Assembly: GCA_947625775.1 (NCBI GenBank)
Contig: CANQPM010000006.1
Span: 124,001 to 188,000 of the forward strand
Length of the DNA: 64,000 nt
Direction: 5' to 3'
DNA from: an uncultured Lachnospiraceae bacterium
Lineage (GTDB): Bacteria > Bacillota > Clostridia > Lachnospirales > Lachnospiraceae
Shown here: positions 1 through 15,575 of the stretch, piece after piece
Layout of the letters: the number at the start of each line of letters is the position of its first letter
Position numbering within the stretch: position 1 is the stretch's first letter
Position numbers and translations under genes: made by a program
Notes under the pieces: model-generated
The model's database searches: none
What the model saw: only the letters and a program-made list of their open reading frames with translations
Told to the model about the DNA's origin: nothing

Positions 1-555
1 ACATTATCTGCAGATTATATTTTTTCATTTTATTGGAAAAAAGTATCCTCAGATTTATTGTTAATTCCACAAATAGGTAGCATTAATTTCCATCCAGGTC
101 CTTTGCCAGAGGCTCGTGGGTCTGGATATCATATTGCAATTCTTGAAAATTGGGGATATTGGGGTGTGACGGCGCATTATATGGATGAGGAATTTGATAC
201 AGGTGCTATTATACAATGCAATCGTTTTTCTATTGATGCAAACATTGTTAACAAGGACTTGGTTACTTTGACTCATGAAAGGTTATTTGCCTTATTTAAA
301 GATATTGTTAACAGGATTCTTGATGGTGAAAGATTTATAGGAGAGGAACAGACGGAAGGAAGATATTTTAGTTTACATGAATTAGAGGATAGTAAATTAA
401 TTAATCCAAATGAGAGCGCAGAACAAATAAATAGAAAAATTCGTGCTTTTTGGAATCCGCCATACCATGGGGCTCAAATTGATATGGCAGGAGAAAAATA
501 TACGTTAATTAATAAAGAAATCCTTGATTGGATTGCAGAGAAGATTAAAACGTAA
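1..555 (+). CDS. Formyltransferase family protein (5' end outside window)
   Basis: The frame is open from base 1, so the N-terminus lies upstream and only about 184 residues are visible. The core of a folate-dependent formyltransferase (methionyl-tRNA or sugar-amine formyltransferase fold) is clear. It has INFHPGPLPEARG, which carries the catalytic Asn and His, and DEEFDTG, which carries the catalytic Asp. A C-terminal subdomain has RAFWNPPYHGA. In glycan loci this family N-formylates amino sugars using N10-formyl-tetrahydrofolate, and the aminotransferase 30 bp downstream would supply the amine. This sugar role is inferred from context. A housekeeping Fmt is less likely because of the neighbours and the short C-terminal part. 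Confidence 0.85.
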   Translation, partial: TLSADYIFSFYWKKVSSDLLLIPQIGSINFHPGPLPEARGSGYHIAILENWGYWGVTAHYMDEEFDTGAIIQCNRFSIDANIVNKDLVTLTHERLFALFKDIVNRILDGERFIGEEQTEGRYFSLHELEDSKLINPNESAEQINRKIRAFWNPPYHGAQIDMAGEKYTLINKEILDWIAEKIKT

Positions 556-584
556 CTATTTTTTAACAATAGAGGAGAAAGTAT

Positions 585-1718
585 ATGGATAGAGTTATTA
601 AACCAACGCAGCCAGTTATGCCACAATATGATAGATACATAAGGGAAATTAAAGACATATGGGATACAAAGGTTTTAACAAATAATGGTAATAAAGTTTG
701 TAAACTACAACATGATATTTGTAATTACATGAATTGCAAAAATTCTGATTTGTTTGTTAATGGACATTCTGCCTTAATAATTGCAATTCGTGCGTTAAAT
801 TTAAAGGGGGAGGTTTTAACATCACCATTTACTTTTGTTTCTACTACTAATGCCATTGTACAGAACGGGTTAACACCAGTTTTTTGTGATATCGATGACA
901 GCTATAATATAGATGTAAGTAAATTGGAAGGCAAAATTACAGATAATACATGTGCCATAATAACGCCCCATATTTTTGGTATTCCTTGTAAAGTAAAGGA
1001 AATAGAAAGATTGGCTTTAAAATACAACTTAAAGGTGATATATGATGGAGCACAGGCGTTTGGCACTAAGATTGACGGAAAACATATAGGTGCATATGGA
1101 GATATAACGATGTTCAGCCTCCATGCAATCAAAGTGTATAATTCAATAGAAGGGGGACTGTTGGTATATTCGAATGATAAATTACATGAGAGTTTTGAGT
1201 TATACAGAAATTTTGGAATTTCATATGACGAAGACAAAAATGATGTTATTGTATGTGGTATAAATGCAAAAATGAATGAATTTCAAGCCGCTATGGGAAT
1301 TTTAGGGCTTGAAATCGTAGAAGATGAAATTGGTGTACGAAAAAAGCTGGCAAGTATATATATTGACAGATTGTCAAAAATAGACGGAATAGATACATAT
1401 CCGTATGAAGACGGGATTGATTATAATTATGCATATTTTCCTATACGTATAAAACAGGAAAAGGTTGGTTTTGATAGAGACACATTATTTCTTCGATTGA
1501 AGGAAAGAGGAATAATAACAAGAAAGTTATATGATACACTTAGCTGCGACTACAGTTATTATAAAGAAGGCAGATATAAAATGGATGTTGAGTATGCAAG
1601 AAAAATTTCTAAAGAAGCGTTAGATTTACCATTGTATGGAGGACTTCAAATATCAGATATCGAACATGTTTGTGATACTATTATGGCTATTTGTAAGGAG
1701 GAAAGTAATGTCAAATAA
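585..1718 (+). CDS. DegT/DnrJ/EryC1/StrS aminotransferase
   Basis: This is a 377-residue PLP-dependent sugar aminotransferase, which transfers an amino group (usually from glutamate) to a keto-sugar nucleotide. Family marks are the SPFTFVSTTNAI segment, Asp154 in YDGAQAFG, which contacts the PLP pyridine nitrogen, and the SLHAIK motif with Lys183 as the Schiff-base lysine, followed by EGG. The length is normal. The ATG follows a good GAGGAG site. It overlaps the next gene by 11 bp, so the two are translationally coupled. The product amine would be a substrate for the upstream formyltransferase. The exact sugar is unknown. Confidence 0.92.
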   Translation: MDRVIKPTQPVMPQYDRYIREIKDIWDTKVLTNNGNKVCKLQHDICNYMNCKNSDLFVNGHSALIIAIRALNLKGEVLTSPFTFVSTTNAIVQNGLTPVFCDIDDSYNIDVSKLEGKITDNTCAIITPHIFGIPCKVKEIERLALKYNLKVIYDGAQAFGTKIDGKHIGAYGDITMFSLHAIKVYNSIEGGLLVYSNDKLHESFELYRNFGISYDEDKNDVIVCGINAKMNEFQAAMGILGLEIVEDEIGVRKKLASIYIDRLSKIDGIDTYPYEDGIDYNYAYFPIRIKQEKVGFDRDTLFLRLKERGIITRKLYDTLSCDYSYYKEGRYKMDVEYARKISKEALDLPLYGGLQISDIEHVCDTIMAICKEESNVK

Positions 1719-2781
1719 TTTGGAAAAAAGTGTGTATAGTAATTTAAAAATATTGTATCATTCTGAGAAGATAGCAGATATTATAAATGGAAAAAGGACA
1801 GCTCCTATATATATTAGAATAAAACCTACAAATACCTGTAATCAAAATTGTTATTATTGCGGTTCTAAAGACGATAATGTACCAGAAGAACGCAAATTCG
1901 ATTGTAAGGCATTTATTCCGCAGCAAAAAATGCGTGAAATTATAGAAGATATATCGGATATAGGAGTCAAGGCTGTTACTTTCAGCGGCGGTGGGGAACC
2001 GCTGGTATATCCATATATTGAAGAAACATTGGAGCTTGTCAAAACTAAACAGATAGATTATTCGATTATTACGAATGGACAGGCTTTAGAAGGTAAAAAA
2101 GCTGAATTATTATCAGATGCAAAATGGGTTAGAGTTTCTCTTGAATCTGCTAATGCTGATACGTATGCGTCTATTCGGGGTGTGAATACATTTAATAAAG
2201 TAATTCATAATATTACAGATTTTATACAAAATAAAAGTCCAGAGTGTACAGTGGGAGTTAATTGTGTGGTCGCAAATGATAATTATCAAGAGATTTATGA
2301 CTTGTGTGGTGTTTTGTCAGAGGCTGGAGTAGATAATATTAAATTGTCACCGCTAAGAAATGCAGGGGGGGGGGAATATCACAAGCCGTTAAAGAATAGT
2401 GTAATGCGCCAAATTGAACAGGCTAAAAAAGATTTTGAAAGCAATAAATTTAAAATTATTGATAAATATTCTAATGATTCTGGACTTGAGGATAATTATC
2501 AAAAGCCTTATCATAGATGCGTAATCCAGGAAATTTTTACTGTAATTGGAGCAGATTGTAAAGTATATTTATGCCATCAGCGTGCATATACAAAAAATGG
2601 GGATATTGGTTCGTTGGAGAATCAAAGTTTTAAACAATTATGGTATGCGGAGGACACTATAAAAAAAGTGCGTGAATTTGATGCGTGTAAAGAATGCAAT
2701 TTTAGGTGTGTGTTTGACGAACGAAATATTTTGTTAAATGATTTATTGTCTCTTGATAAAAATCATATTAATTTTATATAG
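1708..2781 (+). CDS. Radical SAM/SPASM-type enzyme carrying an in-frame G10 tract
   Basis: This is a 357-residue radical SAM protein with a CX3CX2C cluster at Cys44, Cys48 and Cys51, and a GGGEP motif for SAM binding. A C-terminal Cys-rich part (CKECNFRC and other cysteines) resembles a SPASM auxiliary-cluster domain. I chose the ATG at 1708, inside the end of the aminotransferase gene, because AAGGAGG lies just upstream; the frame is also open further upstream. The G10 tract at 2365-2374 encodes Gly220-222 and leaves the frame intact, so the gene reads ON here. Its chemistry in this operon, for example a sugar epimerisation, deoxygenation or dehydrogenation, cannot be read from sequence. Confidence 0.85.
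   Translation: MSNNLEKSVYSNLKILYHSEKIADIINGKRTAPIYIRIKPTNTCNQNCYYCGSKDDNVPEERKFDCKAFIPQQKMREIIEDISDIGVKAVTFSGGGEPLVYPYIEETLELVKTKQIDYSIITNGQALEGKKAELLSDAKWVRVSLESANADTYASIRGVNTFNKVIHNITDFIQNKSPECTVGVNCVVANDNYQEIYDLCGVLSEAGVDNIKLSPLRNAGGGEYHKPLKNSVMRQIEQAKKDFESNKFKIIDKYSNDSGLEDNYQKPYHRCVIQEIFTVIGADCKVYLCHQRAYTKNGDIGSLENQSFKQLWYAEDTIKKVREFDACKECNFRCVFDERNILLNDLLSLDKNHINFI
2365..2374 (+). repeat. G10 homopolymer in radical SAM gene (in frame)
   Basis: Ten consecutive G residues lie inside an otherwise AT-rich coding region and encode three GGG glycine codons plus the first base of a Glu codon. Gain or loss of one G would frameshift the last third of the enzyme. It is one of six G tracts of 8 bases or more between 2.3 and 10.4 kb. 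Confidence 0.9.
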
Positions 2782-2812
2782 ATATAAATAAATCTATAGG
2801 AAGAAGAATGTT

Positions 2813-3661
2813 ATGAGCAATAGTATGAATGATGATATATCAATAGAAACTGAGGAATTAAGGAAAAGAATTATAAAGACCGCTTGGAATGGGAAAGCAG
2901 GGCATATTACATCAGCACTTTCTATGGTAGATATTTTAGCGGTGTTGTATTTTGGAGGAGTTCTTCGTCATGATTCTCAAAAAGCAGATTGGAGCGAACG
3001 TGATAGATTTATATTGAGTAAAGCTCATGGCGGGCTTTGCTTATATGTGGTTTTAGCAATGTGTGGATATATTCCAATGAAGGCACTTGAATCTTACTGC
3101 CATGCAGGGCAGAATTTAGGCGATCATTCCAATATGAGCGTAAATGGAGTGGAAAACTCAGGTGGATCACTTGGACACGGTTTAGCTATTGCAGCGGGAA
3201 AAGCATTGTCAGCAAAAATGAAACATCAGGATTACGTTACATATGTATTAACAGGGGATGGAGAATGTCAAGAAGGAAGCATATGGGAAAGTGCATTATT
3301 TATTGGAAAGAAAAAATTGAATAACTTAGTGTGGATTATTGATTATAATCATTTGCAGGCTAATAGTAGAATAGAAGGATTTAATACTTTAGAACCATTA
3401 GCAGATAAACTAAATGACTTTGGATTTAATGTCAAAAATGTAAATGGACATGATCATGAAGAATTATATAAGGCATTAAAAATAGATCGAAACTGCTTAC
3501 CAGAATCACCGACAGCTATTATAGCTAATACAAGGAAAGGGTATGGTATTCCTTTGCTTGAAGATAAAGAAAATTGGCATGGGAGATTGCCGAGTGCAGA
3601 TGAATATGAGGAAATTGTGCGCGAACTTGGAATGTCAATGGAGGAATTTTTAAATTTATGA
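2813..3661 (+). CDS. Transketolase, N-terminal (TPP-binding) subunit
   Basis: This 282-residue protein matches the N-terminal half of a split transketolase. It has the thiamine-diphosphate motif GDGECQEG near residues 148-155, ending in the DYNHLQ segment, plus SKAHGGLCLY and GGSLGHGL. It should form a heteromer with the product of the next gene, which it overlaps by four bases (ATGA). The pair transfers a two-carbon ketol unit. Inside a glycan operon, rather than beside pentose-phosphate genes, a role in making a ketose or branched sugar precursor is plausible. That role is inference. Confidence 0.93.
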   Translation: MSNSMNDDISIETEELRKRIIKTAWNGKAGHITSALSMVDILAVLYFGGVLRHDSQKADWSERDRFILSKAHGGLCLYVVLAMCGYIPMKALESYCHAGQNLGDHSNMSVNGVENSGGSLGHGLAIAAGKALSAKMKHQDYVTYVLTGDGECQEGSIWESALFIGKKKLNNLVWIIDYNHLQANSRIEGFNTLEPLADKLNDFGFNVKNVNGHDHEELYKALKIDRNCLPESPTAIIANTRKGYGIPLLEDKENWHGRLPSADEYEEIVRELGMSMEEFLNL

Positions 3662-4593
3662 GGATAGAATATGAACAGGCTATTTATGATTTGATGAAAA
3701 AAAATCAAAAAATTGTTGCTTTGGTGGCAGATAGTGGGACTGGTAAATATAAGAATATTCAGGAAGAAATGTCAGATAGATATATAGATTTTGGAATCGC
3801 AGAAAATACAATGATTGCTGCAGCTTCTGGATTAGCAAGTGAAGGCTGGATTCCAGTTGTTTATGGTATTAATAATTTTTTGGCGTATCGTTCTTATGAA
3901 TTTATACGTAATGATTTATGCATGGATAAACGAAATGTCAAAGTTGTGGGTATTGGCGCGGGTGTTATTCAAAATATGCAGGGACCAACACACCATACAT
4001 TAGAAGATATATCATGTTTAAGGGCATTGCCTAATCTAACTATTTTATCTCCAGGAAGTCCCAAAGAAGTTTATGGAGCGTTGGAGGCAGCAGTGAATAT
4101 GGCTGGACCAGTGTATTTAAGATTAGCGAAACTGTTTGAAACAGAGGTATATGAGAATGCTCCTCCTAAATTTAAAATTGGTGAAGTAAATGTTGTGCAT
4201 TATGGAGAGGACATGACATTATTTGCCACAGGTTCAATTATGGGAGATGCATATGAAGCTGCTAAAATTTTGGAAAAAGAAGGTATATACGTACAGGTCG
4301 TTAATGTTCGCTCTTTGAAACCCGTAGATAAGGCTGAAATCCTGAAACAGGCGAGAATGACGAGAAAAGTTGTAACACTTGAAGAACATAATATATATGG
4401 AGGATTGGGAAGTATTATTGCAGAAATACTAGCTGAGTCGGGTGAAGCTTTTTTATTCAGAAGAATGGGATTTAATGATGAATTTTGTACAGAGTATGGA
4501 TGGCATCAGGAATTAAAACGTTTATATGGACTATCACCAAAACATATTGCAGGCATGTGTAAAGATATTGTTTTGAAAGATAGATTATTATAA
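3658..4593 (+). CDS. Transketolase, C-terminal subunit
   Basis: This 311-residue protein supplies the pyrimidine-binding and C-terminal domains of a split transketolase. It contains FGIAENTM, with the catalytic Glu that activates TPP, then GPTHHTLEDI and the LEEHNIYGGLGS segment of the C-terminal domain. The start overlaps the stop of the N-terminal subunit by four bases, which suits equal production of the two subunits. No G tract is seen in either transketolase gene, unlike most genes around them. Confidence 0.93.
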   Translation: MRIEYEQAIYDLMKKNQKIVALVADSGTGKYKNIQEEMSDRYIDFGIAENTMIAAASGLASEGWIPVVYGINNFLAYRSYEFIRNDLCMDKRNVKVVGIGAGVIQNMQGPTHHTLEDISCLRALPNLTILSPGSPKEVYGALEAAVNMAGPVYLRLAKLFETEVYENAPPKFKIGEVNVVHYGEDMTLFATGSIMGDAYEAAKILEKEGIYVQVVNVRSLKPVDKAEILKQARMTRKVVTLEEHNIYGGLGSIIAEILAESGEAFLFRRMGFNDEFCTEYGWHQELKRLYGLSPKHIAGMCKDIVLKDRLL

Positions 4594-4639
4594 TACAAAA
4601 TAAAATGAGTATTAATGTTATTATGAGGGCATATTATTA

Positions 4640-5530
4640 ATGAAAACGAAAGTATTGGTTACAGGCGCAGGCGGATTTATTGGACAAAATGTAGCTTCTT
4701 TCTTAATAGCGCAAGGTTTTGATGTTATTGGAATATATCGAAATAGGAGACCTGCTGGTGTACACAAATGCATTCATATGGATTTGGCTGATAAAACGCA
4801 ATATGAATTGCTTAAAAATGAAAAGATTGATGTAATTATACATTTTGCAGGGCAGATGCGTGGCGATAAAATAAAAGATTATTTGGATAACACAATAGGG
4901 AGTGCAAGATATCTGATAGAATATGCTGAGCAGATGCATATAAAAACATTTGTATATATTTCTAGTATTTCCGTTTATGGATACACTTTTTCAGAAGTAG
5001 ATGAAACTAGCGATTTGATTAATTTAGATGATTATGGAATGACTAAATATCTATGCGAAAGAATGCTGGAAGATGCAGACATTGAAAAAAAAATTGTTAT
5101 TAGGTTACCACGAGTGTTGGGAAAAGGAGCTGATTTGTCATATCCATGGCTGCCGAAGGTTACGGCAGCTTTAATGGCAAATGAGGATGTGAATTATAGA
5201 AATCCAAATTTGATGTATAATAATGTGTTGTATGTAGATGATTTTTCGGCGTTTATAGTTCATTTATTGAAACAAGAGATGTACGGATATGAGCTTTTTG
5301 TTCTTGGAGCGCAGGACAAAATGAGAATTATTGATATTTTGAAGACTTTAAAGACATTATTGATGAGTGATTCAAAATTGATTGAGCAACCAGCATCGGG
5401 GTGTAATACATGTTATGCGATTAATATATCTCATGCACAAGAATATGGGTTCAAGTCAAGGCAGATAAGAGAAATTTTAGGGAAGTTTGTTGAGGATATA
5501 ACTATTAGTATGGGAGAGAAGACACTATGA
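4640..5530 (+). CDS. NAD-dependent epimerase/dehydratase (extended SDR)
   Basis: A 296-residue extended short-chain dehydrogenase/reductase acting on a nucleotide-activated sugar. The N-terminus has the Rossmann motif TGAGGFIGQN. The SSISVYG segment supplies the catalytic Ser and YGMTK the Tyr-xxx-Lys pair. It is clearly paralogous to the next gene, which it overlaps by four bases (ATGA); the two share VTG.GG..GQ, FVYISS and YGMTK. The reaction (epimerase, dehydratase or reductase) cannot be decided from these motifs. Confidence 0.9.
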   Translation: MKTKVLVTGAGGFIGQNVASFLIAQGFDVIGIYRNRRPAGVHKCIHMDLADKTQYELLKNEKIDVIIHFAGQMRGDKIKDYLDNTIGSARYLIEYAEQMHIKTFVYISSISVYGYTFSEVDETSDLINLDDYGMTKYLCERMLEDADIEKKIVIRLPRVLGKGADLSYPWLPKVTAALMANEDVNYRNPNLMYNNVLYVDDFSAFIVHLLKQEMYGYELFVLGAQDKMRIIDILKTLKTLLMSDSKLIEQPASGCNTCYAINISHAQEYGFKSRQIREILGKFVEDITISMGEKTL

Positions 5531-6387
5531 AAAAAATTTTGGTAACTGGTGTAGGTGGTAATGTAGGTCAGTCAATTGCTTCTGATTTGGTGAATGCGGG
5601 GTATGCGGTTAGCGGTATTTATCGTAATAAAATGCCTCAATCTGTTGGATATGAATTGATTAAGGCAGATTTGACAACAAATAGGGGGGGGGGGGTATAT
5701 GATGCAGTAGTTCATTGTGCTGCTCGCATTAAGGGATCTTCTAGGGCGTTGATATGCGATAACATTGAAGCTACCAAAAATCTTGTAAGTTGGGCGGAGC
5801 AAACAGATATAAAGACATTTGTTTATATATCATCAGTAGCCGTTTATGGACGAGTCGATGGTGAATTGTCGGAAACGAGTGGTGTTCGTAATTTGAATGC
5901 ATATGGAATGACGAAGCACATATGTGAAACGGTAGTAAGAGAATCTGAAATCCCGGAAAAAATAATAATTCAGTTGCCCAAAATGATAGGACCATATGTA
6001 CATATGGAAGATACGAGTGGTTCTGGATTTTTAACAATGACTAAGCAAATTCTAAATGGAGATAGGGTGGTATGCTTTATACCTGATATGAGATATAATA
6101 ATTATCTGCATGTATCAGAATTGAGCAGATTTTTGGTACACTTATTGTCTCAGAATAGTCTGCCAGAAAATCAAACAATGCTGGTTGGCGCAAAAGAAAA
6201 ATTGCCAATGAAAGAGATATTGCAGATTATGCGAGACGAGGCAGGAAGCAGTTCCGAAATAATTGCTCAGTGTAATGGTACAGTGCCAGAGGTCTCTGTA
6301 ATTAATATTGAGAAGGCGCAAATGTTTGGATTTTCACCAGTCAGCGCAGAAAATATGTTGCGGCGTTTTATTAGAGAAATCAGGTGA
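5527..6387 (+). CDS. NAD-dependent epimerase/dehydratase (extended SDR) carrying an in-frame G12 tract
   Basis: A 286-residue SDR paralogous to the preceding gene, with TGVGGNVGQS at the N-terminus, YISSVAVYG and the catalytic YGMTK. The G12 tract at 5684-5695 encodes part of Arg53, Gly54-56 and the first base of Val57. In the paralogue this spot is a normal loop between the ADL strand and the DVIIHFAG strand, so the tract sits in a loop that tolerates length change. The gene is in the ON frame here. It starts inside the end of the upstream gene and is probably coupled to it. Confidence 0.88.
   Translation: MKKILVTGVGGNVGQSIASDLVNAGYAVSGIYRNKMPQSVGYELIKADLTTNRGGGVYDAVVHCAARIKGSSRALICDNIEATKNLVSWAEQTDIKTFVYISSVAVYGRVDGELSETSGVRNLNAYGMTKHICETVVRESEIPEKIIIQLPKMIGPYVHMEDTSGSGFLTMTKQILNGDRVVCFIPDMRYNNYLHVSELSRFLVHLLSQNSLPENQTMLVGAKEKLPMKEILQIMRDEAGSSSEIIAQCNGTVPEVSVINIEKAQMFGFSPVSAENMLRRFIREIR
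5684..5695 (+). repeat. G12 homopolymer in SDR gene (in frame)
   Basis: Twelve consecutive G residues, the longest tract in the window, lie about 160 bases into the gene. Slippage by one base would truncate the enzyme near its N-terminus. The neighbouring paralogue at 4640 has no tract at this place. Confidence 0.92.
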
Positions 6388-6447
6388 AAAATTAAGAGCT
6401 TGATATCAGAATATAGTGATTATGTGAAGTTTTCGGGGAGGATTAAA

Positions 6448-8337
6448 ATGGATATTAACAAATGTGCAAGGGGTATTCTTGCAAGAAATATAAAGCAAAT
6501 AAAAAAGGTACAGAAGATTTCAAAAAAGAAAATTAAAGAAATAATTGCCAAACATATTTGTAAGGGTCAGGAAGTGATTCTATTATTAGGATATAAAAAA
6601 GATGTGGACAATCTTTTGAAATGCTTTCCTAAGAAGGTTACAGCAAATGTCGTATGTGAGTATATAAATGCAGACGATTGGATCAATTTGCCAGGTAAAG
6701 AATTTAACAATGAAAAGTTGGTCGAAAAAATTGCCAATTTTAAAATAGATAAGTTGATTATTGCTTCAGAAGATATGCGTTATTTGTTGCAAATGTATCT
6801 ATTGAGTATGGGTGTATCTTATGAAATAGTAGATATATATGAAACGATAAAAAAAGAATGCGAAATAGAGCTTACTGAAAGTATTGGCGTTAGTTTGTAT
6901 GCTATAGCGAAGCAGTATATTAAACGTGTTGGCAAATTGATTATATACGGGGGGGGGGGTAAGCAGGAGCAGTGCGATAATTATGACGCAATATTGGTAA
7001 AAAGATTGCGTTATAAATATGCTAAAAGCGATAAAGATAAGAAGTATTATTTATCGGAGTTGATTATCAGTTATCTTAAAATTAAAGATTATAGGAGTGC
7101 CTTTTTTTATATTGATGAATATGTAACGCTATTTGGAGAAACCAATGGTTTTGCAAAAATAAAACAGGAGTTTTCACAGCTATTATTGGATATAAAAAAG
7201 GAGATGCATAATAGAAAGCAAAAAGATATTATAGTTTTCTGGTGTGATGCCTTATCTTATAGAGATTTTGTGAAATGGGATTTTTTGAAAGAGATTCAAA
7301 AAGACAGTTTATTCTTTGAGAATGCTTATACACATGTGCCTTATACCCATACTACCATTCAGGCGATTTTTACGGGACAACCTTTTTTCGATGGAAAGTT
7401 TTATCATATTTCGAATGTTGAGAAGGGAAAAACGATTGATTTATTAGAAAATTATGGTTATAGGATATACGAACCTGGTTATTTATATATAGATACGAAA
7501 TATACAACTAAATTAGACTGCATTGCAAGAAATGCTTATCAGCCGGCATCTATAATGTTATGGGAAACTTTGGCTCAAATATTAAAAGATGACGAAAAAA
7601 AATTTATTATATGCCATATGGATTGTGAGTTACATAATCCATATTGGAATGGACAGTCTGAAAAGATGCGAGTGGATCCAGGGAATTTTCTTACCGATAT
7701 TTCGGATTTTCTATTTCAAAGAAGAGAATCCGCAGATTATGTAGAGAAACAGATTTTGTACTATTCTGATTTTATAGGTGAAAATGCATGTAAGGTTTAT
7801 ATGAGTGATCATGGTAGCGGAGGAGTTCCGCCATATGATGAATCCAGGCTGCATGCGTTTTGCTTTGTTAAAGACAGCAATATTGTCAAGGGAAGATATA
7901 AAAAATATTTTTCGTATCTAAATTTTTATAATTTGATTCAATACATTTTGAACCCAACAAAGATAGACTTTCAAAATGTGTTTTCGGATTATGTGCTGAT
8001 ACAGAATGATCATCCATTTAGTGAAAAATATTGTGATCGTATTTTGCTTGGAATCGAAAAGGGAGAAGATGTATGTTGGAAAAAATGGATGGGATTTCGT
8101 GGGATTATAAAGGGAGGTTATAAGCTTATACGTTATCCGGGATGTCATGAGAGTTGGTTTGGACCGAATGATATTGAGATACGCCCAGACAGTATACAAA
8201 ATTCGGGCTTAGTAGAAGATATGAGAAAAATGGTTGGTAATATTTTTCCAGATATTTATGAGGATGACCATTATGTGCATACAAGAAAATTATATGAAAA
8301 ATTAGGAGTGGAATATCAGGATAAGAATAATGGTTAA
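6448..8337 (+). CDS. Alkaline-phosphatase-superfamily (sulfatase/phosphotransferase-like) enzyme with an in-frame G11 tract
   Basis: A 629-residue protein. The C-terminal half has features of the alkaline phosphatase/sulfatase superfamily: a metal-binding Asp267 in IIVFWCDALS, a Thr-rich nucleophile region at 300-303 (YTHTTIQAIFTG), HMDCELHNPY, and the Asp-His metal ligands in YMSDHGSGG near residue 453. I see no transmembrane segments, so a cytoplasmic or peripheral enzyme is likelier than an LTA-synthase-like membrane enzyme. The N-terminal 250 residues are of unknown type. I chose ATG 6448 because GGGGAGG precedes it; a TTG at 6400 is possible but has no clear site. The G11 tract encodes Gly168-171 and keeps the frame. 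Confidence 0.75.
   Translation: MDINKCARGILARNIKQIKKVQKISKKKIKEIIAKHICKGQEVILLLGYKKDVDNLLKCFPKKVTANVVCEYINADDWINLPGKEFNNEKLVEKIANFKIDKLIIASEDMRYLLQMYLLSMGVSYEIVDIYETIKKECEIELTESIGVSLYAIAKQYIKRVGKLIIYGGGGKQEQCDNYDAILVKRLRYKYAKSDKDKKYYLSELIISYLKIKDYRSAFFYIDEYVTLFGETNGFAKIKQEFSQLLLDIKKEMHNRKQKDIIVFWCDALSYRDFVKWDFLKEIQKDSLFFENAYTHVPYTHTTIQAIFTGQPFFDGKFYHISNVEKGKTIDLLENYGYRIYEPGYLYIDTKYTTKLDCIARNAYQPASIMLWETLAQILKDDEKKFIICHMDCELHNPYWNGQSEKMRVDPGNFLTDISDFLFQRRESADYVEKQILYYSDFIGENACKVYMSDHGSGGVPPYDESRLHAFCFVKDSNIVKGRYKKYFSYLNFYNLIQYILNPTKIDFQNVFSDYVLIQNDHPFSEKYCDRILLGIEKGEDVCWKKWMGFRGIIKGGYKLIRYPGCHESWFGPNDIEIRPDSIQNSGLVEDMRKMVGNIFPDIYEDDHYVHTRKLYEKLGVEYQDKNNG
6949..6959 (+). repeat. G11 homopolymer in the phosphatase-superfamily gene (in frame)
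   Basis: Eleven G residues plus the following T encode part of a Gly-Gly-Gly-Gly stretch in the poorly conserved N-terminal half. One inserted or lost G would remove the catalytic domain. Confidence 0.92.
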
Positions 8338-8359
8338 ATGAAGTCTTGGGAGGATTAAA

Positions 8360-9044
8360 ATGGACATTAAGAAAAACAATTACGAAGTAATGAAGGAACA
8401 ATTTGAAACTGAAAATTTTTCATTAGGAAAATGGTCTTCTTGGAGTATGATGCATGATGCCAGACATTTGGCGTTTGTCCTTTCGAGGTATAAATTTGTA
8501 GCCAAGATGCTTGAGGGACGGAAAAATGTGATGGAGATTGGATGTGGCGACGCATTTGGGACACCTATTGTTGCACAAAATCTATGCGGGGGGGGGGGTA
8601 TTGTATGCTGTTGACTGGGAAGATGAGTTCTTGAAAGAGAATAGAGAAAGATTGTCGGTTATTAGGAATATTAAATTTATCCAACATGATATGAATAACG
8701 CACCGCTTGATGATGTGAAAGTCAGTGGCATTTATTTGGTCGATGTAATTGAGCATGTAGATTCGGCTAATGAAGAAAAGTTCCTGAAAAATATTTGTGC
8801 ATCATATAGTGATAAAGAGGAAGCAGTCATGATTATTGGAACGCCTAATTTGGCAGCGGCACAACATGCATCAAAGCAAAGCGCGGCTGTTCATATCAAT
8901 CTCAAAAGTCAAGATAGTTTAAAAAGGTTATTAGAGAAATATTTTTATAATGCTTTCATGTTTGGCATGAATGATGAGGTGGTGCATACAGGGTATGCGC
9001 CTATGTGCCATTATATATGGGGGATTGGATGTGGGCTTAGGTGA
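8360..9044 (+). CDS. Class I SAM-dependent methyltransferase, interrupted at a G11 tract (phase OFF)
   Basis: The first frame runs from ATG 8360 (site GGGAGG) to a stop at 8614 and contains the SAM-binding motif VMEIGCGDAFG. The rest continues in another frame as YAVDWEDEF, then LVDVIEHVD and MIIGTPN, up to a stop at 9044. The switch point is the G11 tract at 8588-8598. Removing one G (G10), or adding two, joins the frames into a 227-residue enzyme with motifs in normal order. The gene is therefore OFF in this sequence. The shared context and the next gene's start at 9052 suggest a functional phase-variable gene rather than random decay. A homopolymer sequencing error is the alternative. Confidence 0.85.
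8588..8598 (+). repeat. G11 homopolymer that breaks the methyltransferase frame
   Basis: Eleven G residues directly after a TGC codon. The downstream methyltransferase frame requires 3k+1 G residues, that is 10 or 13. The present 11 give a truncated 84-residue product. Confidence 0.92.
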
Positions 9045-9051
9045 GGAAAAA

Positions 9052-10864
9052 ATGAGAAGTAGGTTTAAATTATTATGTGTTTCAACAGTTGCCTTTTGCG
9101 GGGCATCATTTTTGTTATATAGTTTCTATGACTTAAATGCTGCTAATGAAGCATGGCTTTATTGTTTGATGTTTTTGGGTACATATTATATTATCAAAAA
9201 TACACTATATGAAAAAAATACTCTGGCGGGAAATAAAGCGCTATGGGGTATGAGTTTGCTTTTTTCTGCAACTATTACAACAGGAATTTATTTTGATAAT
9301 GATTTTCCGTTTGAAAAAATGGCTGTATTAGACTGTTTGTTTTTTGTTTTATGCACTATATCAATGTGTCCATTGTTTAGGGGTATGTTTTTGACTGCTT
9401 ATCAACTTATGGAAAGATGGGCAATGCATGAAAATGGAATGATATTATCGCAGTGCTCGTCAAAAAAGGTATTTGGAGTTTCCTTCGCGATTATTTTTGG
9501 TTGTTGGGTTCCCGTTTGGCTTGCTTATTATCCGGGGCTATGGAATTATGACATAAACAGGCAGATTTATGAATTTAGGAATATAGATGGCTGGAGTCTA
9601 TCAACATTTCATCCTTTGATTCATACGTTGTTTGTCAACATCTGCTATTCTATTGGTGATGGGAAAGTAGATCACAACAGCGGAATAGCAGTATATACGG
9701 TTTTGCAGATGCTTATTATGGCACTTATTTTTGCTTACACTTATAGATATATATATGTACATACGGCAAGCAAGATATACATGGGGGGGGGTATTGGCGT
9801 TCTTCGCAATTTTCCCAGTGAATTCTATTATGTCATTGTGTTCGACTAAAGACGTGATATTTTCGGGTCTTGTTTTGCTTTGTTTGGTTTTAGCACTTGA
9901 GGTTATAGAAAGCGTTTCCCCCAAACAGAAAGTTAAGAAGCTTGTCATATTGGGGGTGGCATCTGTGCTTATGCTTTTGTTTAGAAATAATGCTATATTT
10001 GCGTTCTTGCTGTTGACGGGAATTTATATTTTTTCTATGATTTTTAAGAAGAAACAAACAAAAGTGTGTGTATATATGATGCTTGTAGTTGGAATGTATA
10101 TGGTTAGTAATTTTCTATTATCTTATACTCTGAAAGCAGAAGTAGGATCAGTACAGGAAATGTTCAGTATTCCGGCGCAAATTTATGGAAGAATTTGGCA
10201 AAATGTTGAGGTGGAAAAGACGCTTAGTGAAAACGCAATCATTGAGGAGATGATGGAAAAATATTATCCTGAGCCGCCATATGAATATGACCCACGAATA
10301 GCGGATCCGATGAAGGGGGGGGCACTGAAACTTAAAGGTGAGTCTCCGGCACAATATTTAATATCGGCGGTAAAATATTTAATAGATTCTATGAAGCTGT
10401 TTGCAAAATATCCTGTTGTAGGTATGGATGCTGTATTATATTTGACAAAAGGTGATTGGTATATTTGCGACGTAAGTTTTGCCAATGTATCAAATTATGG
10501 TATGGAAACGAGGTCTGGATATTTATATACCAATTACAGCGAGGTTTTGGATGTGGTTCATCGTAGCAAGTTTCCACAGTTGGAGTTTTTGCTGGAACAT
10601 GCTTTTTCGGCTAATGAATATCAAAAAATGCCAATATTGTCGGTTTTTTTCTCACCGGCTTTATATATATGGATTTTGTTGTTTTGCACTACAATTTTTT
10701 GTAAAAAGGGAAGATATGATTATATGTTGCCTGTTGCTTTTTTGTGGTGTTTGTTTTTGACTATATTGGCGGGACCAGTATCAATTGTGCGTTATATGTA
10801 TCCTTTTTTCGTTTGTAGTCCGATTTTGATTTGCATGGCATGTAATGCTGTGCAGACAAAGTAA
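9052..10864 (+). CDS. DUF6020-like multi-pass membrane protein, interrupted at a G9 tract (phase OFF)
   Basis: The first frame starts at ATG 9052 (GTGAGGAAAAA site) and ends at 9849. A second frame continues through TKDVIFSG, many hydrophobic segments and a C-terminal membrane domain to 10864. The switch is the G9 tract at 9783-9791; G8 or G11 would join both parts into a 603-residue protein. The joined product resembles the intact 630-residue membrane protein at 19182: both have a YPG or YPCS motif with WD or WNYD, a FHPL or HHPP motif, and a TVIKD or STKDV motif. That family (DUF6020, as I recognise it) looks GT-C-like and probably uses lipid-linked sugars. A second tract, G8 at 10315, lies further along. 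Confidence 0.8.
9783..9791 (+). repeat. G9 homopolymer that breaks the membrane-protein frame
   Basis: Nine G residues starting with the last base of an ATG codon (residue 244). The downstream frame needs G8 or G11; G9 leads to a stop at 9847-9849. Confidence 0.9.
10315..10322 (+). repeat. G8 homopolymer, second tract in the membrane-protein gene
   Basis: Eight G residues within MKGGALK, in frame with the downstream part. With two tracts in one gene, a slip at one can be compensated by a slip at the other only if the segment between them stays open. Confidence 0.8.
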
Positions 10865-11107
10865 AGGATTGGCTCATTCCTGAAAAATTATAAATAATGT
10901 TGAAAGCAAGAAATAGAATTGTTTAATTGTGTGTTCTAAGTGTAAAAGCGATAGCGTATCTGATTACTTTGATTGTTTTTGATTGTTTATAGATATTTTG
11001 GGGAAAAATTAAGCCAACAGAAATATCACTTGAAAGAAAGTCTGCAAATAAAAAGTCAAGAAGAAATTTGTGAACTTTGAAAATTTTATACAGGTTGAAC
11101 GAAAGCA

Positions 11108-11137
11108 CAAAAACCAGACCACCGCGGAACGCTGGTC
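11108..11137 (-). terminator. Hairpin downstream of the IS110 transposase gene
   Basis: On the minus strand a GACCA...TGGTC stem with inner CG pairs is followed by TGGTTTTTG, about 24 bp after the transposase stop. It could terminate transposase transcription or be part of the element's end. The 10.87-11.10 kb stretch between it and the island contains no gene that I can see. Confidence 0.5.
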
Positions 11138-11160
11138 CGATAAAAGGGTTAGAATTGTTT

Positions 11161-12381
11161 TTAGTTTTCTTCCGTTTCGGGCAGGGAAGCAAGGTATTCC
11201 CTTACCCGCCCGTAATAAATGCGGAGGAACTTGTTCGCACCGGCAGTCATGTAGACGTAATAAGGCTTGCCCTCCGACCGTTTCCTGTCCATAAAAGCAT
11301 AAACAGGATTATCAGCAGGCGAACGCTTGATAAGGTCGTCCATGATCTGGAAAAGTGTCTTACGCAGGCTTGGAGAGCCTTTCTTGGTTGTAGGCGCGCT
11401 TTTCTGGATATGCTGTCCGGAATCTCTGGTTTTTCTGGGATCAACGCCAGCAAAGGCAGTCAGCGCTTCGCGGTGCGTAAAACGCGTCACATCCCCGCTC
11501 TCAGCCATGAGCTGTGGGCCAAGGGTGGGGCCGATGCCGTTCATCGCCATGACAACCGGGTATTCCGGCAGCGTGGAGGCAGCTTCATCCATTTTCCAGC
11601 GCAGGGTTTCCACGGTTTCAGATGCGGTATTCAGCATGGTCACGGCCTGTCGGATCAGCAGTTTTGTGCTGTCATCCTTAGGGAATACGGCGATCAGGTC
11701 AGAGGAGGCCTTATAGATCCTTTCCGCTTTGTCAGCGCTGAAGTTATAGCCCCTGCGTCTGCACCAGTTCTGATAGTGCTCCGTAAAGGCAGCCAGTGAC
11801 TTGGAACGGACACAGTCCACATGCCAGTAGGTATGTACAAAATCCACCCACTTCTGGCTGCCGTCGCTCCTGGCAGGGCTGTCGAAGAAATCATTCGCGC
11901 CCGGATAGGTCTGGTCAAGCAGGGCAATGATGTTGTTCTTCATGGAAGTTTTCTGTGCCATGTAAAAGCCAAACTGGCGGTTCAGGGTTTTGAGTTGGTT
12001 GCGTGTTTTATCCATGTTTCCATATTGCTTCAGTTTTGCCCAGCGGTCAAGAGTGTACCGTGCGATTTTCTTGGAATCCGCCTTGTCGGTCTTGGGAGCG
12101 CGGAGGGAATTATCGCCGAACTCTTTGATGAGGATGGGGTTTACGGCACTGACAAAGATACCAGCATCCGAAAGCCATGTGGTGACCAGTTCATAGTACC
12201 TTCCGGTGTGCTCCATGCAGACTTTTGTTTCCCCGTCAAGCCCCCTGATTTGCCGGATCAGGTCATTGATGGCGGACTGTGTGTGGGGGATGTCGCAGGG
12301 AGGCAGGATGACCACATCGCCTGGCCTGCGGATGGTGACGGTGCTTTTGCCTTTTGAAACATCAATACCAACAGCGTTAAT
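11161..12381 (-). CDS. IS110-family transposase
   Basis: This DEDD recombinase of the IS110 family is about 406 residues long. The N-terminal RuvC-like domain begins NAVGIDVSKGK (first catalytic Asp), followed by CMEHTGRYYE (Glu) and APKTDKADSKKIA (the Asp pair). The C-terminal domain has MNGIGPTLGPQLMAESGD, FAGVDPR and SPSLRK, the serine-containing part of the second domain. An ATG exists at 12411, but the codon at 12381 is ATT, sits 8 bp after AAAGGAG, and places the start exactly at the conserved N-terminus. An ATT start is therefore likely. It is the only minus-strand gene and its composition differs from that of the neighbouring AT-rich operon. It appears intact. Confidence 0.93.
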   Translation of the reverse strand: MNAVGIDVSKGKSTVTIRRPGDVVILPPCDIPHTQSAINDLIRQIRGLDGETKVCMEHTGRYYELVTTWLSDAGIFVSAVNPILIKEFGDNSLRAPKTDKADSKKIARYTLDRWAKLKQYGNMDKTRNQLKTLNRQFGFYMAQKTSMKNNIIALLDQTYPGANDFFDSPARSDGSQKWVDFVHTYWHVDCVRSKSLAAFTEHYQNWCRRRGYNFSADKAERIYKASSDLIAVFPKDDSTKLLIRQAVTMLNTASETVETLRWKMDEAASTLPEYPVVMAMNGIGPTLGPQLMAESGDVTRFTHREALTAFAGVDPRKTRDSGQHIQKSAPTTKKGSPSLRKTLFQIMDDLIKRSPADNPVYAFMDRKRSEGKPYYVYMTAGANKFLRIYYGRVREYLASLPETEEN

Positions 12382-12600
12382 AAAAGATACTCCTTTACAA
12401 TGGATTAGCAATGGTCAATACCAGGTTTACTCATTGCCTGTTCAATCTACTGGGTGTCACGCGAACGGGAGGTTCAACCTGCGTAAAACGAATGCTGCGA
12501 ATGAGTGCTGGCTGGCTGACTTTTACACGGACGTGGTGTCCTGGGAGGTGACGGCCAGACCTATTGCCACACTCATTCTAACAGCTTAAGCAACAAGATG
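12382..12600 (-). ncRNA. Candidate IS110 bridge-RNA region
   Basis: This is non-coding sequence upstream of the transposase. IS110-group elements encode a structured bridge RNA in this place, which pairs with target and donor DNA. Short self-complementary pieces are visible, for example AGGTT-C-AACCT near 12471. I could not fold the whole stretch, so position and function rest on family knowledge. Confidence 0.4.
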
Positions 12601-12645: not shown

Positions 12646-13605
12646 GTAGTAGAAGATTATAATCTGGATATAATGCGTGACAAACAGAATCTTACAACAA
12701 TCACAACAGGTATTTTGGAAGGAACGGAGCCGATATAAAAAAAAGAGCAGCCAGAAATAGTGCTTGTTCATGGCGATACAACGACTTCCTTTGCGGCCGC
12801 GCTGGCAGCATTTTACCAGCAGATACCCGTAGGGCATGTGGAAGCAGGGCTTAGGACAGGCAATAAGTATTCGCCGTACCCCGAGGAAATGAACCGTTCC
12901 CTGACAGGCAGGATTGCCTCATACCATTTTGCCCCAACGCAATTAAACAGGCGTAATCTGGAATCAGAAAATATAAAAGAAAATGTATATGTTACTGGCA
13001 ATACAGTCATAGATGCCTTTCAGACGACTGTCAGAAGTGATTATCAGTTTCATAATGAACAAGTCGGAAATATTGATTTTGAATCTAACAAAGTTATTCT
13101 GGTGACTGCCCACAGGAGGGAAAATCTTGGCGAACCGTAAAAGAACATTTGTCAGGCTTTAAAGAGAATTGTGCGTGATAATGAAAATGTAATGGCAATA
13201 TACCCTGTACATCTTAACCCTGCCGTGCGTGAGCCTGTATTCGAAATACTTGGAAATATTAGCAATGTTATTCTGACCGAACCGCTGGATGTGTTGGATA
13301 TGCACAACCTGATGAAACGGTCATACCTTGTAATGACGGACTCTGGTGGATTGCAGGAGGAAGCGCCTGCCTGCGGCAAGCCAGTGCTTGTAATGCGCAC
13401 TGAGACAGAAAGACCAGAGGCGGTAGATGCGGGTACTGTTAAGGTAGTTGGCGTAGAAGAAAATAATATTTATAATGAGGCAGTAAAACTCTTGAATGAT
13501 GAAACAGAGTATCATAAGATGGCAAAAGCGGTCAATCCGTATGGCGATGACCATGCGAGTGAACGGATTGCGAAGATACTACTTGCAGATGATAAAAAGC
13601 GATGA
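12646..13605 (+). pseudogene. wecB: wecB-like UDP-GlcNAc 2-epimerase, degraded
   Basis: One continuous frame encodes most of a non-hydrolysing UDP-N-acetylglucosamine 2-epimerase. It includes [68 protein letters not shown] and TDSGGLQEEAP. It has lost about 70 N-terminal residues, including the start. There are in-frame TAA codons at 12736-12738 and at 13138-13140, where an amino acid is expected after GEP. No frameshift is needed. The loss of the 5' end beside IS110 suggests IS-linked rearrangement. The last codons (ADDKK) fuse to nuclease-gene sequence. Confidence 0.88.
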
Positions 13606-13806: not shown

Positions 13807-13829
13807 AAGAGTGGCGGGGAGGATTGGCT

Positions 13830-15575
13830 ATGGCAGGTACAGCGGCACTGGGTTACCAGAATTATGAGGAGATTATCACTGAAGATATACTCTATATAGA
13901 CAAGACAAACTTCATCAGTGAGTGGTGGGAGCACAAGGATAAAGTTACTCTTATTACCAGACCGCGCAGATTTGGAAAGACGCTCAATATGAGTACGGTC
14001 GAATGCTTTTTCTCAAACAGGTATGCAGGCAGAGGAGACTTGTTTGAGGGAAAGAGTGTATGGGAAGCAAAGGACGCGGACGGAGAATACAAATACAGGA
14101 AGCTGCAGGGGACATTTCCAGTGATATTTCTGAGCTTTGCTTCAGTTAAGACAGGAAATATAGAAGGGATAAAGACTGCTGTAAAGCAGTCGGTTGCCGA
14201 ATTGTATCGTAGACATGAATTGATGATGTCAAGGGGGGTATTTAACGATAATGACAGGGAATATTATCACAGCATAAAAGATGCGATGTCTGATGAAATG
14301 GCGATAAGGGCGCTTAACCGTCTAAGCGAGTACATGGAGAAATGTTACGGAAAAAAGCAATCATTCTGCTTGACGAATATGATACGCCTATGCAGGAATC
14401 ACTGTCTTTTATAGGGCAAAAGCCAGGGCTAGATGGAACATGGAGCGAAGCTGTCAGCTTTTTCAAAAGCTTTTTTGAAACTACATTCAAAACAAACGAG
14501 CATGTCCACAGGAGCATCATAACAGGAATCACAAGGATTTCAAAGGAGAGTATTTTTTTCAGGATTAAACAATTTAAGAGTGGTGACTACGACCTCAGAC
14601 GCATATGCCGAGTGTTTTGGTTTTTCGGAGAGCGAAGTGTTTTCTGTATTAGATGAAGCAGGACTTGGAGTCGAAAAACAGAAAGTAAAGAAGTGGTATG
14701 ACGGATTTACCTTCGGCAGCCACAGTGACATTTATAATCCGTGGTCGATCATATCATTTATCGGAAACAATGCAAAATATGAGGCGTACTGGATAAACAC
14801 GAGCGGAAATGACCTCGTCAATTCTCTGATACAAAAAGGCGATGCCGATATTAAGCAGACAATGGAGGAGCTTATGGCGGGCAGGAGCTTTGAGGCAAAA
14901 ATAGACGAGCAGATAGTGTTTAGCCAGTTAGAGGGCAACACAAATGCAGTATGGAGCTTGTTGCTTGCTACAGGATATCTGAAAGTGCTGAAAACCGAAA
15001 CCGTTTCTGGCGATGATGATGAAGCAGGGGATGTAAGGTATACTCTTACTCTGACAAATTTTGAAGTGAAAAAAATGTTCCGAAAAATGATAGCAGGGTG
15101 GTTTGGCGGAAATACGGAAAAATACTACAATGCTTTCATCAAGGCATTGCTTGCGGATGATAAAAAAGCGATGAACCGGTACATGAACCATGTAGCGCTT
15201 AACACATTCAGCAGCTTTGATGTTGGTAGCAGACCATCTGAATATACGGAGCCAGAGCGCTTTTACCATGGTTTTGTCTTAGGGCTTATGGTAGAGCTTT
15301 CGGGGCGATATTCTATTACATCCAACCGCGAAAGCGGGTTTGGATGCTACGATGTGATGCTTGAACCGCTAAAGGAAGGGGATAATGCTGTAATCATAGA
15401 ATTTAAGGTACATGACCCTGATGACGAAAAGACGCTTGGCGACACGGTGCAGAGCGCGCTTGCCCAGATTGATGAAAGACGCTATAGCGCGGCACTTGAG
15501 GCAAAAGGAATTGGACCTGGGCGGATACGCAAGTATGGGTTTGCGTTTGAGGGCAAAAAGTGCCTGATAGGGTAA
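13830..15575 (+). pseudogene. AAA-ATPase-like / PD-(D/E)XK nuclease protein, two frameshifts
   Basis: A paralogue of the intact gene at 51250. It has the P-loop-like [13 protein letters not shown], the Walker B segment [13 protein letters not shown] in a second frame, and a C-terminal PD-(D/E)XK nuclease module (NRESGFGCYDVMLEP, then VIIEFKV). Alignment with the intact copy shows one missing A in an A-run at 14351-14356 and one extra T in a T7 run near 14553. Both are homopolymers, so sequencing error cannot be excluded, but the surrounding decay favours a real pseudogene. ATG 13830 follows GGGAGGATT. The family is abundant in gut Bacillota and Bacteroidota and its cellular role is not settled. 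Confidence 0.85.

Follow-up and report, generated by a model that had tools for sequence, protein, structure and literature searches.

Why should six long runs of G lie inside five co-oriented genes of one Lachnospiraceae genome? The stretch of DNA analysed here (the window, 64 kb) corresponds to C6:124001-188000, where C6 coordinates are those of the contig, in an uncultured bacterium whose genome comprises 3.75 Mb in 42 contigs. We consider it probable, at roughly 85%, that the G runs of this genome and its genus are contingency switches, that is, that they provide slipped-strand phase variation of surface glycans and LysM-domain proteins. During replication, the runs would gain or lose G's, so that their lengths would change within one population. 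A run inside a gene would thereby shift the reading frame and leave a glycan-modifying enzyme complete or cut short, and a run in a promoter spacer would alter the distance between the -35 and -10 boxes. The mechanism itself is already known, and its operation here is suggested by the anatomy of the loci and by their alleles. Direct computation gave the positions of the runs, their excess, the genes, the frames, the promoter geometry, and the length differences between near-identical alleles of other tract genes.

A direct count gave six G runs of at least 7 in the window, all on the + strand and all inside 2365-10322; the next longest G run is 6, and no C run of at least 7 occurs in the 64 kb. 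The length spectrum is gapped, as G7 is absent and lengths of 8 to 12 follow. This count bore out the first-pass annotation of the stretch, which had listed tracts of G10, G12, G11, G11, G9, and G8 and no comparable run in the other 53 kb; open reading frames (ORFs) and Pfam matches likewise placed them in five genes, with two runs in the last, a DUF6020 gene. An order-3 Markov model (200 sequences, trained with runs shortened) yielded on average 0.325 G runs of at least 8 per 64 kb (at most 3) and 0.02 in 2365-10322 (at most 1), compared with 6 observed in both cases. Homopolymers of about 8 or more in an ORF or promoter, above chance expectation, are one mark of the simple sequence repeat (SSR) contingency loci, and this is what was found. 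The genes may form one operon, judging from their co-orientation; promoter-like matches in window 1-11200 were not above those in shuffled sequence (49 vs a mean of 57.3). The tracts and their genes, including a radical S-adenosylmethionine (SAM) protein, a short-chain dehydrogenase/reductase (SDR), and a protein of 645 amino acids (aa), are as follows.

1636..2781, + strand: radical SAM/SPASM protein, open through its G run (PF04055, 3e-21; PF13186, 7.3e-5; ORF)
2365..2374, + strand: G10 tract, in frame as assembled, separating the radical SAM core from the SPASM domain
5527..6387, + strand: SDR epimerase/dehydratase with a G run, open as assembled (PF01370, 2.5e-23)
5684..5695, + strand: G12 tract at codon 52 of this SDR, followed by TAT, in frame as assembled
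6400..8337, + strand: 645-aa protein, open as assembled (ORF)
6949..6959, + strand: G11 tract in the 645-aa gene, at codon 183 and with TAA behind it, in frame as assembled
8360..9044, + strand: SAM methyltransferase, split at its run, with an N-terminal piece at 8360-8614 and the rest within 8538-9044 in another frame (ORFs)
8588..8598, + strand: G11 tract of the methyltransferase gene, with TAT behind it; as assembled, the gene halves differ in frame
8971..10864, + strand: DUF6020 membrane protein gene, split at its first run into 8971-9849 and 9731-10864
9783..9791, + strand: first tract of the DUF6020 gene (G9), with TAT behind it; as assembled, the gene halves differ in frame
10315..10322, + strand: second tract of the DUF6020 gene (G8), lying in frame in its downstream piece

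The assembly has the radical-SAM, SDR, and 645-aa genes open and the methyltransferase and DUF6020 genes (two of the five) out of frame. Methyltransf_25 (2.8e-7) and PF19484 (9.1e-16) were matched by the second pieces of the methyltransferase and DUF6020 genes, respectively, and the first pieces gave no match. The two DUF6020 pieces align in order to an open paralogue, L012, at residues 177-268 (weakly, E 5e-4) and 274-624 (E 3e-18). Since L012 has its own G9 run at another position, the runs probably arose separately in the two copies. An automatic frame rule, whose limit of 15 codons is passed by short chance frames, for this reason called the runs at 8588 and 9783 in frame; the ORF and domain reading, by which both genes are split, was adopted instead, and the rule was kept only for separating coding from non-coding runs. 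The 645-aa protein had no match in Pfam (E 0.001) or among PDB sequences (E 0.01) and, by eye, is a candidate sulfatase/phosphoglycerol-transferase-like protein.

Tract lengths were compared among alleles and orthologues in the genus, whose other genomes are denoted by handles such as G017 and whose loci by L numbers. Three kinds of pair were first set aside: 16 between neighbouring runs of a single locus, two between paralogues (L023/L028 and L023/L284, 10 and 10 G), and two that are short and one-sided (L017/L340 and L336/L362). Of the 11 allele or orthologue groups left, seven differ in tract length. An MBOAT acyltransferase gene is split with G9 in this genome and in G017 and is open with G11 in G020. 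The alignment of our copy with that of G020 (97.3% identity over 3001 columns) contains two insertions or deletions (indels), one of which is the tract, and the pieces of the split copy are identical to the open G020 protein at 389/392 and 189/192 residues; the split copy is therefore not decayed. Against G017, 10 further indels were found, at least nine of which fall within columns 1-350, the part in which similarity is lost. The gene of an AMP-binding enzyme is open with G9 in G017 and split with G10 in G052; the two are 99.0% identical over 2410 bp, and the tract is the only indel before the homologous stretch ends. Similarly, L026 of this genome (G11, split by frame analysis) corresponds to L331 of G017 (G10, open), with other small indels nearby. 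The remaining differences were observed in the L027b group (G9, G9, and G10; all three copies are open, and further indels lie upstream), in LysM promoters of this genome and its G017 orthologue (L019/L317; G12 vs G11) and of G003 and G005 (G9 vs G10), and in the tail of a PglD gene (G9 vs G10, in a one-sided alignment). Hence, two further properties of SSR contingency loci were found: run length differs between near-identical alleles, in other tract genes of the genome and genus, and a change in length separates a complete from a truncated product, as seen in the MBOAT frames and proteins and in the window frames.

The window edge cuts the cluster. Six more co-oriented runs lie upstream on the same strand, at C6:107779 (G9), 111808 (G9), 113076 (G8), 115197 (G11), 118234 (G9), and 123712 (G11), and the cluster therefore holds 12 runs of G8 or longer in 11 genes across 26.5 kb; for the 43 kb searched, the Markov mean is 0.26, compared with the 12 observed. 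Co-oriented genes reach upstream at least to C6:95026, the limit of the region examined. The candidate multi-gene phase-variable glycan cassette proposed by the first-pass annotation was thus supported in kind, by the gene functions, by the mixture of open and split frames, and by the frame-changing length differences in congener tract genes. Its six runs stand, but it was not complete, being about twice as large as proposed, and promoter-spacer tracts are also present in the genome.

Genes of the cluster were called with Pfam and NCBIfam, and ORFs without a match were omitted from the order list. The order begins with a WecB-like epimerase, a GFO/IDH/MocA oxidoreductase, a hexapeptide transferase, a DegT aminotransferase, and an ABC transporter, followed by a CBS plus nucleotidyltransferase protein, GDP_Man_Dehyd, and a PglD-like acetyltransferase with a run near its 3' end. 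A NeuD-like acetyltransferase, NeuB, NeuC, a cytidylyltransferase, and a radical SAM protein (run) come next, then a 354-aa protein without a match (run), DUF6056 (run), GmhA-like, GmhB-like, and GDP_Man_Dehyd proteins, and finally, before the window genes, an HldE-like protein (run), two radical SAM proteins, a hexapeptide acetyltransferase (run at its end), and a formyltransferase. A nonulosonic acid is indicated because NeuB (TIGR03569, 508 bits vs a cutoff of 400) and NeuC (TIGR03568, 485 bits vs 236) score above the NCBIfam cutoffs; NeuD, the cytidylyltransferase, and the GmhA/GmhB/HldE-like heptose genes fall below theirs, and their names rest on resemblance. Of the 12 runs, those at C6:107779 and 123712 lie near gene 3' ends. 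The run at 113076 is ambiguous, as it is split by frame analysis and yet the 354-aa ORF passes through it; that at 123712 is also split by frame analysis, yet the acetyltransferase ORF may simply end there. The switched steps in the window would be those of the radical-SAM enzyme, the SDR, the 645-aa protein, the methyltransferase, and the DUF6020 membrane protein, within a 40-kb co-oriented cluster of nonulosonate/heptose type whose product is presumably located on the cell surface. With several switched steps in one glycan cluster, one clone would therefore present a mixture of glycan variants. The other features at this end of the window are listed below.

C6:123712, + strand: G11 run just outside the window, at which a hexapeptide acetyltransferase ORF ends (run, frames)
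1..555, + strand: 3' part of a formyltransferase-like gene (ORF C6:123743-124555; Pfam Formyl_trans_N, 1.9e-10)
585..1718, + strand: DegT/DnrJ/EryC1 sugar aminotransferase without a G run (PF01041, 4.6e-81)
2813..3661, + strand: transketolase N-terminal half without a G run (PF00456, 8.7e-37)
3658..4593, + strand: transketolase C-terminal half without a G run (PF02779, PF02780)
4640..5530, + strand: SDR epimerase/dehydratase paralogue without a G run (PF01370, 5.7e-26), to which the adjoining tract-bearing SDR is 37% identical
11161..12411, - strand: IS110-family transposase, which ends the co-oriented stretch (PF01548, 1.8e-27; PF02371, 7.2e-16)

A WecB-like epimerase gene in two pieces (window 12760-13605) adjoins the IS110 transposase at the cluster end. 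By eye, ORFs at window 13824-15575 are AAA-ATPase/PD-(D/E)XK (DUF1703-type)-like.

The composition of this region bears on whether the split genes are simply decaying, in which case an acquired low-GC island would be turning into pseudogenes and the G runs would be chance frameshift sites. The GC content of the cluster is 34-39%, compared with 41-48% in the seven 8-kb blocks that follow in the window, and the transposase and the two-piece WecB-like gene lie just downstream, as would be expected in such an island. However, in each split gene of the window the run is the site of the sole frame break seen, the runs are far above chance, and the split MBOAT copy is 98-99% identical to the open protein on both sides of its break. 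Decay therefore seems very improbable as the explanation.

The runs extend well beyond the cluster. In the whole genome, 29 runs of G9 or longer were found, 10 in the cluster and 19 elsewhere, and 32 of the 38 genus genomes examined (this one included) have at least one. The spread is uneven: G017 has 50 such runs, G020 has 29, as does this genome, G052 and G047 have 23 each, G007 has 17, and six genomes have none. For closer analysis, a tract set was drawn from the tract regions of this genome, the majority of those in G017, G020, and G052, and part of those in seven other congeners, and comprised 176 runs of G8 or longer after removal of duplicates (the promoter runs G020:C45 and G052:C51 lie outside it). 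Among the 138 coding runs of G9 or longer, 72 are G9 and 44 are G10, and 87 are in frame by an approximate count; a reading frame on the C strand only was seen for 11 of 167 runs of G9 or longer. Outside the cluster, 40 tract-gene ORFs or pieces were compared with Pfam (E 1e-4): they include MBOAT and other acyltransferases, methyltransferases, sulfatase-like proteins, YfhO, DUF6020, DUF6044, glycosyltransferase 2, radical SAM, formyltransferase, AMP-binding, and other families, and 10 of the 40 had no match.

Runs of G20 and G33 in G047 (L377) and of about 47 in G018 (G018:C418), together with runs at contig ends, are of the kind that false poly-G calls from two-colour chemistry or homopolymer miscalls would leave in an assembly. 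Artefact is nevertheless scarcely credible for the runs as a whole: each run of the window has unique coding sequence on either side, separately assembled genomes share runs at corresponding positions, and five runs of this genome have an exact promoter geometry.

These five runs lie exactly between the boxes, in the form TTGACA-N9-G10 to G12-TATAAT. Four of them precede genes of LysM-domain proteins (PF01476, E 2e-8 to 1e-7), whose N-terminus by eye resembles a signal peptide, and the fifth precedes a conserved protein of about 400 aa without a Pfam match. A sixth run, at C5:209420 (G13), lies between TTGACA and TAGTAT, and the gene behind it is radical SAM-like by eye. The promoter pattern was found at 12 places in 6 of the 38 genus genomes, and the reversed control gave 0. 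A G run between the -35 and -10 boxes is the arrangement of the porA/opc/tpr-type switches, and transcription would accordingly be predicted to follow spacer length. In the named genome collection, the pattern occurred in at least 119 stretches; among the 80 matches listed, 77 had spacers of 15-20 (the pattern admits about 12-23), and many came from uncultured clostridial genomes and others from Saccharibacteria, Selenomonadaceae, Streptobacillus, Chloroflexi, and Helicobacter, some of them by chance. The named strain Pumilibacter muris CLA-AA-M08 also has promoter-type runs. Inversion of the promoters was not indicated, since no inverted repeats of at least 14 nt were found within 651 bases in four of the five own promoter regions, and the fifth is flanked by one 19-nt pair of 79% identity.

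Some variants of this arrangement were also seen. The LysM-type paralogues L281 and L282 (C4:110016 and C4:101349) have the same promoter with the G run interrupted by T or A, and L281 additionally has an in-frame TAG; these may be locked copies. The promoters L336 (G052) and L362 (G020) have about 60 bp in common, reaching into the G run, and then continue into different sequence. In G059 (Candidatus Ancillula, L065), TGC or TGA stands behind most of the 44 listed G9 runs, and the runs seen in full have TATAAT behind them, i.e., an extended -10 next to the G run, which is a different promoter style.

The 3' flank of the coding runs is also distinctive. TAT stands directly behind 84 of the 138 coding runs, and behind 83 of 140 when G8 runs are included and the set is filtered by flank similarity, against a background of 4.0% after 8743 G3-5 runs (same loci, both strands) and 4/51 after G6-7 runs. 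Since TAT occurs in all three codon phases (29, 17, and 7 of 53 in-frame cases, one phase being commoner), it does not simply reflect a Gly-Tyr preference. Under one coding rule, the flank was found at 78/119 runs in the genus, 2/10 in Pumilibacter muris, and 3/8 in another clostridial genome, the latter two being small samples that are still above the 4% background. The 150 runs listed for nine of twelve other genomes, with no Helicobacter or Streptobacillus rows among them, are a mixture of promoter and coding runs. Phase variation leaves this flank unexplained. The runs might instead be defined elements, at which some factor specific to the lineage, acting in replication, repair, or DNA binding, seeds or keeps Gn-TAT runs or sets their length, and which also serve as cassette joints; the presence of Gn-TAT in all codon phases and in unrelated genes would fit such a factor, and we regard this as unlikely. 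The flank makes testable why runs in this genus arise or persist where they do.

The same flank could be a slippage signal for RNA polymerase or the ribosome, which would yield mixed frames from one template while the DNA runs stay fixed, and one promoter run, G10 in four genomes, is compatible with fixed lengths. As the DNA length differs between alleles of 97-99% identity, and promoter runs cannot act by frame, such use at the level of expression appears quite improbable. Exchange of cassettes between strains, with the runs mainly as junctions and phase variation secondary, was considered for the block of NeuD-like, NeuB, and NeuC genes, which is 92.9% identical to that of G020 over 3006 bp and whose match begins at the run (C6:107774 onward; L295:8902). 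Upstream of this breakpoint, the two genomes have different genes, with a common tail behind the run; it is one clear case. In contrast, 15 of the 18 between-locus pairs listed align across the tract, although some of these reach just 17 bases upstream, to the -35 box, and three are one-sided, two of them over 93 and 61 bp only (a further 69 of the 103 pairs are of neither kind). Thus, a primary role as junctions is hardly to be expected.

Several observations weigh against phase variation. Four of the 11 groups have equal tract lengths (L027a/L309, L334/L359, L028/L284, and the four-genome promoter). A/T runs of at least 7 in the same alignments, which are not a clean control, were identical in 10 of 18 comparisons (6/7 in the MBOAT trio), and assembly error could account for individual differences of one base at G9-11. 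For the six window runs, no congener run was found at the matching place in loci matched by window DNA; the 645-aa gene had no match at E 0.001 in the other 37 genus genomes, and the best match of the SDR outside this genome was 29% identical. Of the five genes, the protein-level congener searches covered two, the SDR and the 645-aa gene. We infer from the other tract genes that the window's own runs behave likewise. For the gene of the ~400-aa protein (L038, L031, L036, and L037), the promoter run is G10 in all four genomes with the gene, and this unchanged length may reflect constraint rather than switching. Finally, the usual optimum of a promoter spacer is about 17, and the five pattern-matched own promoters have longer spacers of 19-21; the ON state of these promoters is therefore predicted and not seen.

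The best-documented cases of multi-locus poly-G phase variation come from Campylobacter, Helicobacter, Neisseria, and Treponema. The present system would belong to a lineage distant from these if the Bacillota placement holds, and in it the ORF would be the site of switching for glycan enzymes and the promoter for LysM proteins. If the switching is true, one clone would have many glycan states, which bears on phage resistance and antibody recognition, and strain comparisons based on gene presence alone would be affected. Among the full-text literature matches listed, which cover few subscription journals, no poly-G slippage phase variation in Clostridia was found, nor were the density and use of runs across this genus, their double use in promoters and ORFs there, or the TAT flank. 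A poly-C slippage case in group A Streptococcus is named in the reference list of PMC11868660, and slippage in Gram-positives is therefore not new as such.

In Campylobacter, 53% of poly-G tracts are G9 and 26% G10 (PMC6321876, which also covers the strand bias of the runs), values that the coding lengths in our genus (72/138 and 44/138, among runs of 9 or more) resemble. The Campylobacter phasome, which comprises flagellin-glycan, lipooligosaccharide, and capsule genes, belongs to another phylum, and nothing like the proposed LysM-promoter switching or the TAT flank was seen in PMC6321876, whose subject is not the flanks. Promoter G runs alter activity at tp0126 of Treponema and at porA and opc of Neisseria (the latter as mentioned in PMC7864442), and the tprL promoter of Treponema pallidum gave a stronger reporter signal with 8 G than with 10 G (PMC7864442); the targets here differ, being LysM-domain proteins and the conserved ~400-aa protein. 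In Helicobacter canadensis, promoter, ORF, and 3'-end poly-G runs occur together, many of them in one region with methyl- and formyltransferases (PMC2823697). The cluster described here likewise has 3'-end runs (C6:107779 and 123712); length variation was demonstrated in reads there (PMC2823697), whereas assemblies were compared here. Outside the Gram-negatives, the pilus of the gut commensal Bifidobacterium breve is subject to replication slippage at G tracts (PMC9187656), which concerns two pilus loci, compared with a glycan cluster of 12 runs in the present genome.

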